Shown: piece after piece, positions 27,930 to 33,101 of the stretch
Position numbering within the stretch: the first letter of the stretch is position 1
How the letters are laid out: each line of letters opens with the position of its first letter
Source of the DNA: a bacterium
Lineage (GTDB): Bacteria > Babelota > Babeliae > Babelales > Vermiphilaceae
Assembly (NCBI GenBank): GCA_030588705.1
Contig: JAUUXD010000002.1
Coordinates: 1-55,171 of the forward strand
DNA: 55,171 nucleotides
Direction: 5' to 3'
Position numbers and translations under genes: made by a program
The notes under the pieces: generated by a model
The model's input: the letters and a program-made list of their open reading frames with translations, nothing else
Databases searched by the model: none
Told to the model about the DNA's origin: nothing

Positions 27930-30182
27930 TCAGTAGAGATACACGAGGGTGATTGCGGCCAGGCAACCGAATAAAAATGGCCAATACAGAATCTTCTGTA
28001 TCATATTTTTCCGATACCGAATAAACGGTATATCAAAGCCAAGCTGATACAGAAGTGCCACGAGTAAAATTACAATAATCATTATGTACATCATGAAATA
28101 GAAGCTTTCAAAATATACAATCTGGGCTCGTGGAATCTTACCACGGAACCGTACATGGGCAACTACCGTAGCAAAAAACACACTCGCACAGGAACCTATT
28201 ACCGCGTATCCCTGCTGAACACTGGTCAGCAAAATTACAAAGAGAAGGAACGCAATTACCGCAATGGGCAACAGATCGGAAACAACCGTATCAAGCAGCT
28301 GACGCGTAACCAAGAGATCAAAATAAAGCTCTGGTACACCGGATTTATCAACAGAATCATAGACGCCAAATGGCCCGACTTTGTAGTTACCTAAATTACT
28401 CGCGTAGTTCACCGTTTTATACCCAAAATGGGTTGCCACGAGTTTCCAACCAGGCAAATACACATCATTATCAATACCAGGAAGCGACCGTGGATTAATC
28501 AGCTGATACGCATTAAGATCGGGAACAAGTACAATATTTTCTTTGCTATACCGATGCCACAACTGAATATGAATTGCTTTCGTATCAAATGGATATTGAT
28601 CAAATTCTAAGAACTGATTCAATGTGGCATACACTTCCCAAAGAATAACCTCGGATTTCCCCTCTTTTATACGAGACACCTCATTAATAACCACCGTAGA
28701 TGCCTGAGGGAACATCGGACCACGCGGTATTTCATCATGCAAACCATCAGTAAACCGCTGCCAGATATAGGCACTCATTTCAACTTGGCTTGCTGAGACA
28801 AAACGAATATTGTTTATGAAAATACCGGTTGGTATAAAGCGGGCATCATAAAAACCTTTATGCAATGCTTCCTTTGCTTTCTCAAAAAGAGATTCTTCCT
28901 TAGCTTTTGTTACCGCACCCTCTTTATCCTTTTTTTCATGTTTCTCCGACCTGCCCGATACATCAGTAGCAGCTTGATCAACCCGTACGCCATATCGCTG
29001 CCGTGCCGCCTCTTTTTTTAGATAATCAAAGAGTGTCGCTTTATTCTCAACGCGATGAGTTCCCTCATGCTGATAACTCGGATATATCGAGGTTGCATAC
29101 CAGACCCATAAAATTAAACCGGCCAACGCCAACGAAACAGCGAAGGAGGCAGACCACCAGCGAGAAGGGTTTGGCTGTTTGAATACAGAAATAATACATA
29201 CAAGGGACATAATAATGAAAAACACTAATGCCAACATAGGAAGAATAAGATTATGACGCAGCGTGTTGGGCTGCACATCAAGTTCACTCTTATCAAACAC
29301 TCCTACAATGCTCCAACTTGTATCTTCAATCGGTTCTGAAAATAGCCATGAAGGGGCACCGGTAACCTCGTTATCATACTCAAAGAATACCTCTTGTTGT
29401 TTCGCAATTTTTTTACCAACCTTTGCCAATTCCGGATTTTTTAATGTATCAGCAAGCTCAAACACCGAGATCTGTTTGTTGGCAAACTGAGTTTGTGGAT
29501 GGGAAAGGAAAACACCCTTTTTGGTAAGAATAAACCAATACCCGGTTTTTCCCAGAAAGAGCGTATCGAGCACATGTTTTAAATGCTCTATATTCTGGTT
29601 GGCATACACGATACCCGCAGGACGTTTTTTTCCTTCTGCATCGGTATGGTAAAAAGGAACAGCGTATTCCACTAAAATAGTTTTGCTTGCCTGTCCATAA
29701 TAGGGCTCAGCAAATCCAGGCCCCTTTTTAAGAGGATTATTAAACCATTGATGCTCCGGCTTGGTGTAATCATAAACTTTTTCTATATGCACCATCTTCA
29801 CTTCACCCTCTTGCTCCACCATATAGGGGGCATAGAGCTTCGTGTCGGGCCCAAATGCATTCGGTAAAAATGCAACACGGAGTCCCGCAATTTCAGGTGA
29901 TTTGTTTTCACGAAGAAGTGTTTCTATTTCAGCTTTGCTAAGTTTTTTACTACTCAACTCCTTAGCAATGGACTGGGCAAGCGGTTTGAGCATCGTAATA
30001 AAGCCGCTCAGCTCCTTAGCTGCATTTAGCGTATCTTGTCGCGCACTTTCACGCGCTTTATCAAGTAAGCGATCTCGGACCGCAAAAAAATTATACGTAA
30101 GATATATGGTCGCAGCCAAGCCCGCACCCGCTAGCAATAACCATAGGTATGATGTGCGCCTTACTTTAAATATCTTGGTCAT
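27930..30182 (-). CDS. Cache-domain sensor fused to a pentameric ligand-gated ion-channel-like domain
   Basis: N-terminal TM, Cache-like region (KTGYWFILTKKGVFLSHPQ), then GIFINNIRFVSASQVEMSAYIWQRF...FLEFDQYPFDTKAIHIQLWHRYSKENIVLVPD and four C-terminal TM segments. Confidence 0.65.
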   Translation of the reverse strand: MTKIFKVRRTSYLWLLLAGAGLAATIYLTYNFFAVRDRLLDKARESARQDTLNAAKELSGFITMLKPLAQSIAKELSSKKLSKAEIETLLRENKSPEIAGLRVAFLPNAFGPDTKLYAPYMVEQEGEVKMVHIEKVYDYTKPEHQWFNNPLKKGPGFAEPYYGQASKTILVEYAVPFYHTDAEGKKRPAGIVYANQNIEHLKHVLDTLFLGKTGYWFILTKKGVFLSHPQTQFANKQISVFELADTLKNPELAKVGKKIAKQQEVFFEYDNEVTGAPSWLFSEPIEDTSWSIVGVFDKSELDVQPNTLRHNLILPMLALVFFIIMSLVCIISVFKQPNPSRWWSASFAVSLALAGLILWVWYATSIYPSYQHEGTHRVENKATLFDYLKKEAARQRYGVRVDQAATDVSGRSEKHEKKDKEGAVTKAKEESLFEKAKEALHKGFYDARFIPTGIFINNIRFVSASQVEMSAYIWQRFTDGLHDEIPRGPMFPQASTVVINEVSRIKEGKSEVILWEVYATLNQFLEFDQYPFDTKAIHIQLWHRYSKENIVLVPDLNAYQLINPRSLPGIDNDVYLPGWKLVATHFGYKTVNYASNLGNYKVGPFGVYDSVDKSGVPELYFDLLVTRQLLDTVVSDLLPIAVIAFLLFVILLTSVQQGYAVIGSCASVFFATVVAHVRFRGKIPRAQIVYFESFYFMMYIMIIVILLVALLYQLGFDIPFIRYRKNMIQKILYWPFLFGCLAAITLVYLY

Positions 30183-32369: not shown

Positions 32370-33101
32370 TTAATCTCCTTCACTTTGTATGGCAAGCGAA
32401 AGGTAGGTCAGTGAGAGCATAGCAAACACAAACGCTTGTAAAAAACCTTCAAAGATAACAAAAAAAGCCGCAAGCAGCAGATTTAAACCGGAGGCCAACC
32501 CAATAAACTCGAACATGAAATTTCCTTGGATCGCCGTAAAGTAAATACTGCTTATAATAGATCCTCCGAAAATATTACCAAAAAGACGAAAGGAGATAGA
32601 GACAACTGTTGCCAATTTTCCAACAACATTGATCGGCATCATAAGAAAGAACGGTGAAAAATACCCCCTAATATACTTCCAAAGCCCTCCCTCCCCAATG
32701 GCAGCAACCTGTGTATATAAAAAAGAGATAATCCCAAGAGCAAGCGTAGTATTCAAATCAATGGTTGGCTCCTCCATCCAAGGAATAATTGATACGAGAT
32801 TGCATGCAAACACAAAACAGAATAAGGAAGTAATAAAAACAAAATGATTGAACGAAAAGATTGATAACGTCTGATCAACCATCCCTACAAATAAGCGAAC
32901 GGCGTACATAGTAACAAATCGTGCCATAGAATCTTTTTTAGAAAGAAGATAGCGACCAAGAAGCAAAATTGCCACGATAATGCCAATCGTAATCCAGGTG
33001 TAGATCACGGTATGTTTATTAATAGAAAAAAACGGATGATTTGATGAAAAAAAAGGGCCAATGAGCCACTGTTCAGTTTCTTCTATGCCAATTCCGCTCA
33101 T
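32370..33101 (-). CDS. atpB: ATP synthase F0 subunit a
   Basis: EPTIDLNTTLALGI, SISFRLFGNIFGGSIIS (essential Arg), IFEGFLQAFVFAMLSLTYLSLA. Confidence 0.92.
   Translation of the reverse strand: MSGIGIEETEQWLIGPFFSSNHPFFSINKHTVIYTWITIGIIVAILLLGRYLLSKKDSMARFVTMYAVRLFVGMVDQTLSIFSFNHFVFITSLFCFVFACNLVSIIPWMEEPTIDLNTTLALGIISFLYTQVAAIGEGGLWKYIRGYFSPFFLMMPINVVGKLATVVSISFRLFGNIFGGSIISSIYFTAIQGNFMFEFIGLASGLNLLLAAFFVIFEGFLQAFVFAMLSLTYLSLAIQSEGD

Follow-up and report, generated by a model that had tools for sequence, protein, structure and literature searches.

Proteins of Methanosarcina, Cytophaga, and Microbulbifer in which an MCP-N or Cache domain is fused to an ART-LGIC were reported by Tasneem et al. 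(2004/5, PMC549065), whose account of these fusions proposed a function in chemotaxis; an architecture in which a Cache domain is joined to a channel of this superfamily was therefore already known. For DeCLIC, a pentameric ligand-gated ion channel (pLGIC) with a large N-terminal domain, a 2025 paper states that it is the only pLGIC whose N-terminal domain has been partly characterized. In the open-access literature searched, "ligand-gated ion channel" and "Cache domain" are brought together in this sense only by Tasneem et al., and the same literature yielded neither a structure nor a recording of a Cache-fused pLGIC.

Here we describe a gene for a Cache-pLGIC fusion in a 55,171-nucleotide stretch of bacterial DNA, referred to below as the window. 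Candidatus Dependentiae, to which the window genome belongs, are host-dependent bacteria.

Results

Architecture of the fusion protein

The open reading frame of the fusion gene contains all the motifs quoted in an earlier sequence-only reading of this DNA, which had proposed a Cache sensor fused via extra transmembrane (TM) helices to a pLGIC, and sequence profiles and fold comparison bear this proposal out (Table 1). In hydropathy and in the full-length AF2 model (pLDDT, 79.8), TM1 is followed by a mixed alpha/beta domain to residue ~304, TM2, TM3, a linker, a beta domain at residues ~449 to 627, and four C-terminal TM helices; the N-terminal part of this order is the one proposed earlier. 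Foldseek matched the full-length model to both GLIC and the dCache structure 3lib with a probability of 1.00 each. The secondary-structure string of the model merges M1 and M2 into a helix at residues 629 to 680, while the fold comparison still aligns the whole module with GLIC. The pLGIC part had been located correctly (channel module, 27933 to 28844, residues ~447 to 750; Cache, 29271 to 29996), and a small correction is needed, in that the segment from hairpin to channel is a linker of ~75 residues that is mostly disordered.

Positively charged residues are found before TM1 (KVRR), between TM2 and TM3 (K/R), and between M3 and M4 (RYRK). From the KVRR motif we infer that the N terminus is inside, and hydropathy and charge fit a topology in which the Cache and the beta domain would both be periplasmic and the C terminus would be outside. 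The closest named record is OFTM262, a Candidatus Dependentiae MAG with 68% identity over the channel module, which was the sole locus to come from the single-protein contig scan.

Table 1. Features of the Cache-pLGIC gene and of neighboring genes, in window coordinates
Feature	Position	Strand	Basis
Cache-pLGIC fusion gene, 750 aa	27930..30182	-	ORF; intact homologues in other Dependentiae genera, closest 55-57% identity
TM1 (residues ~12-34), inside one long helix 2-63	30081..30149	-	AF2 secondary structure; hydropathy clear in relatives
Periplasmic double Cache sensor domain (63-304)	29271..29996	-	PF22673/PF02743; PDB 3li8/3lib by sequence and fold
TM2-TM3 hairpin (305-333, 339-366), anchoring the Cache ahead of the channel	29085..29270	-	Hydropathy, AF2 helices, hairpin profile
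Linker (367-446), mostly disordered	28845..29084	-	pLDDT <50 at 393-443; 28 to 213 aa in aligned relatives
pLGIC extracellular (ligand-binding) beta domain (447-628)	28299..28844	-	Profile to GLIC, AF2 and Foldseek
Pro-loop YPFD (530-533), superfamily signature	28584..28595	-	P 33/33, D 32/33 in relatives
Pre-M1 arginine R627, salt-bridge partner of D533	28302..28304	-	R 32/33 in relatives
Four-helix channel domain M1-M4 (629-750)	27933..28298	-	Hydropathy, AF2/Foldseek
Predicted pore helix M2 (0' to 23', residues 661-684)	28131..28202	-	Register from GLIC profile alignment; column counts
Acidic protein, 218 aa, TM-like segment	27170..27826	-	
Tetra-hairpin ATP-synthase c protein, 322 aa	31401..32369	-	
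ATP-synthase a subunit	32370..33101	-	

The Cache domain

The Cache assignment held up in Pfam, where both PF22673 (residues 93 to 180; E = 7e-11, above its cutoff) and PF02743 (residues 144 to 294; E = 4e-9, below its curated cutoff) matched. By sequence, the dCache sensors 3li8 and 3lib from the PDB match the protein at E values of 1e-7 to 1e-6, and chemoreceptor domains are also among the PDB relatives. A double PDC fold lies between two TM helices, as in members of the dCache family (PF22673/PF02743, fold match to 3lib, flanking TM helices).

In dCache_1AA domains, the amino acid is held by a conserved Arg and a conserved Asp, which are R126 and D173 in PctA (PMC10104139). Aligned to u102569, the window Cache has His in place of R126 and Asn in place of D173, and it was rejected as a dCache_1AA amino-acid sensor. 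An assignment as a dCache_1AM amine sensor was likewise rejected, the conserved Asp at the end of that motif being Asn in the window protein; among relatives this site is Asn or Thr in most, Asp in one of the L032 copies, and Asp at this position or adjacent to it in L053. Because the dCache_1AA residues are replaced here and these ligand positions vary among relatives, known motifs do not allow the ligand to be predicted. A reading of the protein as an MCP was also discarded, since the cytoplasmic MCP signaling domain is absent from both the protein (Pfam) and the genome.

The channel module

No Pfam or NCBIfam family, Pfam Neur_chan included, was found in the channel module, and a search of the genome with Neur_chan_LBD gave no matches; the latter result proves nothing, because no control genome matched either. 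A plainly GLIC-like channel from another Dependentiae genome (L095) matches GLIC at an E value of 3e-9, yet it was missed by Pfam too, so the silence of Pfam is not evidence against a pLGIC. The window sequence alone found GLIC weakly (E = 0.008, residues 520 to 719), and a profile of 33 Dependentiae relatives found it at an E value of 4.7e-12 (hmmsearch; profile positions 52 to 305). Thus, the profile match anticipated in the sequence-only reading did not appear with the Neur_chan families of Pfam and was obtained with the family's own profile. The AF2 model of residues 440 to 750 (pLDDT, 87.5) has the anticipated channel beta-sandwich and four helices, and its first Foldseek match is GLIC (E = 1e-16; probability, 1.00; TM-score, ~0.74); GABA-A receptors are also among the matches, likewise at a probability of 1.00. 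With a beta-sandwich on the extracellular side, four TM helices after it, and a match over the full length, the module belongs among the pLGICs.

Relatives, layouts, and the linker

At an E value of ≤1e-3, the channel profile was found in 43 of the 101 phylum genomes sampled, a count that includes a second, weaker GLIC-like group (E = 1e-4 to 1e-13, mostly 340 to 390 aa), and in 33 of the 68 good assemblies. Four layouts occur within the family proper. In the first, one Cache is followed by the hairpin and the channel, as in 20 intact proteins of the order including that of the window, and the hairpin profile was found in 20/20 of these single-Cache proteins. The second consists of ~1,000-aa proteins with two sensor modules, such as L045 with its two PF02743 stretches; the third, of 370 to 460 aa, has a hairpin or a single TM helix and the channel without a Cache; and in the fourth, the layout is split, with the gene of a Cache-like membrane protein 10 bp upstream of the channel gene (L059). 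The two-sensor channels and the split version tie the Cache and channel modules together, and the Cache-less relatives indicate that the channel can exist without a Cache.

Several loci showed further arrangements. In L059 (4735 to 7225, plus strand), a ~450-aa membrane sensor (dCache_1, E = 9e-7) is encoded immediately upstream of the Cache-less channel gene, and L057 (6467 to 9072, minus strand) has a similar arrangement with a ~450-aa sensor, for which there was no significant Pfam match. The fusion gene occurs as a tandem duplicate in L032 (6654 to 11072, minus strand) and L041 (6559 to 10908, plus strand), where heteropentamers are possible. Copies in L044 (6686 to 8801, minus strand) and L051 (6553 to 8669, minus strand) are apparently broken into two or three frames, which suggests decay or assembly errors. 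The GLIC-like pLGIC of L095 (1246 to 3495, minus strand; 357 aa) directly adjoins the gene of a periplasmic binding protein of type I (PF13458, E = 1e-19), resembling the periplasmic binding protein neighbors reported for other bacterial pLGICs. In L096 (577 to 2391, plus strand), an open frame of 604 aa ends in a pLGIC-like C terminus, which is preceded by a long N-terminal part rich in hydrophobic stretches and without Pfam matches.

Outside the phylum, a full-length homologue comprising TM helix, Cache, hairpin, and channel (24% identity) is encoded on a complete replicon of Vibrio sp. THAF191d (L063, 3695 to 5770) as a 697-aa open frame (692 aa from the Met). In the PDB, this homologue is closest to the Cache domains 9hvj and PctB, not to 3li8/3lib. 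A Cache-less homologue was found on an Acaryochloris plasmid, and phage records and viral contigs gave no matches.

The variation in linker length (Table 1) argues against a rigid rod passing through the linker, and coupling between sensor and channel would have to run via the TM hairpin, direct contact between the Cache and the channel's extracellular domain, or ligand delivery. The same variable and mostly disordered linker speaks for a different reading, namely, that the Cache serves as an accessory for structure, assembly, or ligand concentration and that gating is left entirely to the extracellular domain of the pLGIC, for example, through pH. This reading is also in line with the Cache-less paralogues, with the loss of the ligand residues of known Cache classes, and with the proton gating of GLIC, the nearest solved relative. 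However, the 20 intact proteins all retain Cache and hairpin, other proteins carry them in duplicate, and this genome offers no other partner for the Cache. We therefore regard an accessory Cache as unlikely, though by no means negligible.

Signature residues and the pore

Pro-loop receptors share an [F/Y]PxD loop with an invariant Pro (Jaiteh et al., PMC4795631), and both this loop and the pre-M1 Arg are conserved among the 33 relatives (Table 1). The sole exception is L060, in which Ser and Glu replace the loop Asp and the pre-M1 Arg; joint loss is as expected if the two residues form a salt bridge. In M2, the window protein has bulky Phe residues at 8' and 9', Arg at 19', and small residues at 2', 5', 6', and 10', and it has no Glu at -1'. 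Position 9' is Phe in 28/33 relatives, and 19' is Arg in 28/33 and Lys in 2. Across the relatives, Glu is not conserved at -1', and a charged ring close to the cytoplasmic end is missing. Nor is there a basic residue at 0', a feature that is frequent in pLGICs (79%) and not defining; this position is V661 in the window protein and V, I, T, or L in relatives. Classical selectivity signatures are thus absent from M2, and that the conserved 19' Arg ring may lean towards anions is a guess from these columns.

Such an unusual M2, which lacks both a basic 0' and a charged ring towards its cytoplasmic end and has Phe at 8' and 9', might indicate a nonconducting pLGIC-like scaffold that signals or organizes by conformation only. 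However, 9' Phe is a known minority state found in 13% of known pLGICs (PMC4795631). Retention of the small M2 residues, together with the loop Asp-Arg pair that is kept in all relatives but one and lost jointly in that one, likewise makes a nonconducting scaffold improbable.

Genome context and signaling output

Profile searches found one pLGIC in the window genome and one Cache, the fusion's own. The signaling searches covered MCP signaling and response-regulator domains: MCPsignal gave no matches in the window genome and was positive in 7/14 control genomes, and Response_reg gave no matches and was positive in 12/14. The genome is ~96% complete, so these absences are not absolute. With the sole Cache in this protein and neither signaling domain found, neither chemotaxis nor two-component signaling can be seen as an output, and the channel itself is the only one that is visible.

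The reading proposed for the Cache-fused members by Tasneem et al. (PMC549065) is that of a chemotaxis receptor in which ion flux through the channel steers motility, and the Cache is indeed a classic chemoreceptor domain. A genome in which no MCP signaling or response-regulator domain, and hence no CheY, was detected does not fit that proposal, and we consider chemotaxis very improbable for this organism. That an assembly or gene-prediction artefact joined two genes can be dismissed, since only the draft state of the genome speaks for it and the same fusion recurs across independent assemblies (20 intact proteins) and on the complete Vibrio replicon.

Upstream of the fusion gene and on the same strand are genes for a glycosyltransferase, a tetra-hairpin ATP-synthase c protein, and the adjoining ATP-synthase a subunit (Table 1). 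Hairpin 2 of the c protein has Gln in place of the ion-binding Glu of the other three hairpins, and an ordinary single-hairpin c (86 aa) is encoded on contig C7 together with a gene of the F1 alpha/beta type. In 12/12 close relatives, the a and c genes likewise lie upstream and on the strand of the channel gene, the gap to the tetra-hairpin c gene being 109 to 4,672 bp; homologues of this c protein, nearly all full length, were found in 85 of the 86 genomes of the order searched. Because the c gene is near-universal with or without the channel, synteny alone shows no functional tie between the channel and ATP synthase. Judged by their sequences, the tetra-hairpin c and the a subunit look like a conserved second Fo-type module. 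On the other side, a 218-aa acidic protein is encoded between the channel and a gene for a PLP-dependent (cysteine-synthase-like) protein; it has no Pfam match, and no similar open reading frame was found beside the channel genes of relatives.

Discussion

Collectively, these findings suggest that the protein is a Cache-gated homopentameric channel that converts a chemical signal into ion flux, with the flux as output, a reading to which we assign a probability of about 0.6. The gene product would be one subunit of a homopentamer in the inner membrane, each subunit carrying a periplasmic double Cache that is anchored by TM1 and the TM2-TM3 hairpin. The flexible linker would tether this Cache to the channel part, which consists of an extracellular domain like that of GLIC and a four-helix pore. 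Binding of a small periplasmic solute to the Cache would shift the open probability of the pore, and a second solute may bind the channel's own extracellular domain; the "two-input ligand-gated channel" suggested earlier from the sequence is therefore plausible. The chemical signal would in this way become a flux of ions. With no MCP signaling domain, response regulator, or other Cache detected in the genome, this flux, felt through the membrane potential or the ion balance, most likely makes up the entire output. A more specific claim is that the protein is the cell's own chemical-to-electrical transducer, in which the Cache gates the pentameric pore directly and flux, rather than phosphorylation or methylation, is the signal; this is possible, and we put it forward tentatively. 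With one Cache, two, none, or a split arrangement, the family provides natural variants for testing sensor gating of a Cys-loop-type pore.

Of the known systems, GLIC (the Gloeobacter proton-gated channel; PDB 3eam etc.) has the same fold over the C-terminal module at 17% identity; unlike the window protein, it is without an N-terminal sensor, and the M2 residues differ. The Methanosarcina histidine-kinase sensors 3li8 and 3lib have their dCache fold in common with the window Cache (TM-score of the target, 0.73 to 0.79), whereas their output is a histidine kinase and the window Cache does not retain the Asp and Arg that are key to amino-acid or amine binding. DeCLIC, named as a precedent in the sequence-only reading, is likewise a pLGIC with a large periplasmic N-terminal domain, one that modulates gating (PMC12664993, PMC9897478). 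The likeness is loose, however, because that domain consists of two Ca2+-binding jelly-roll lobes and is not a Cache, and no TM hairpin is described ahead of the DeCLIC channel.

The MCP-N/Cache-fused ART-LGICs described by Tasneem et al. (PMC549065) come closer as a precedent. By their description, to which this comparison is confined, these proteins likewise consist of a single chain in which a Cache-type sensor precedes a pLGIC ligand-binding domain and four TM helices; the passages describing them mention no TM hairpin between Cache and channel, whereas the window protein has one. The window protein also differs in coming from a new phylum. What is added here is a fusion whose Cache is the only one of its genome, in which neither an MCP signaling domain nor a response regulator was detected, and this setting separates the role of the channel from chemotaxis.
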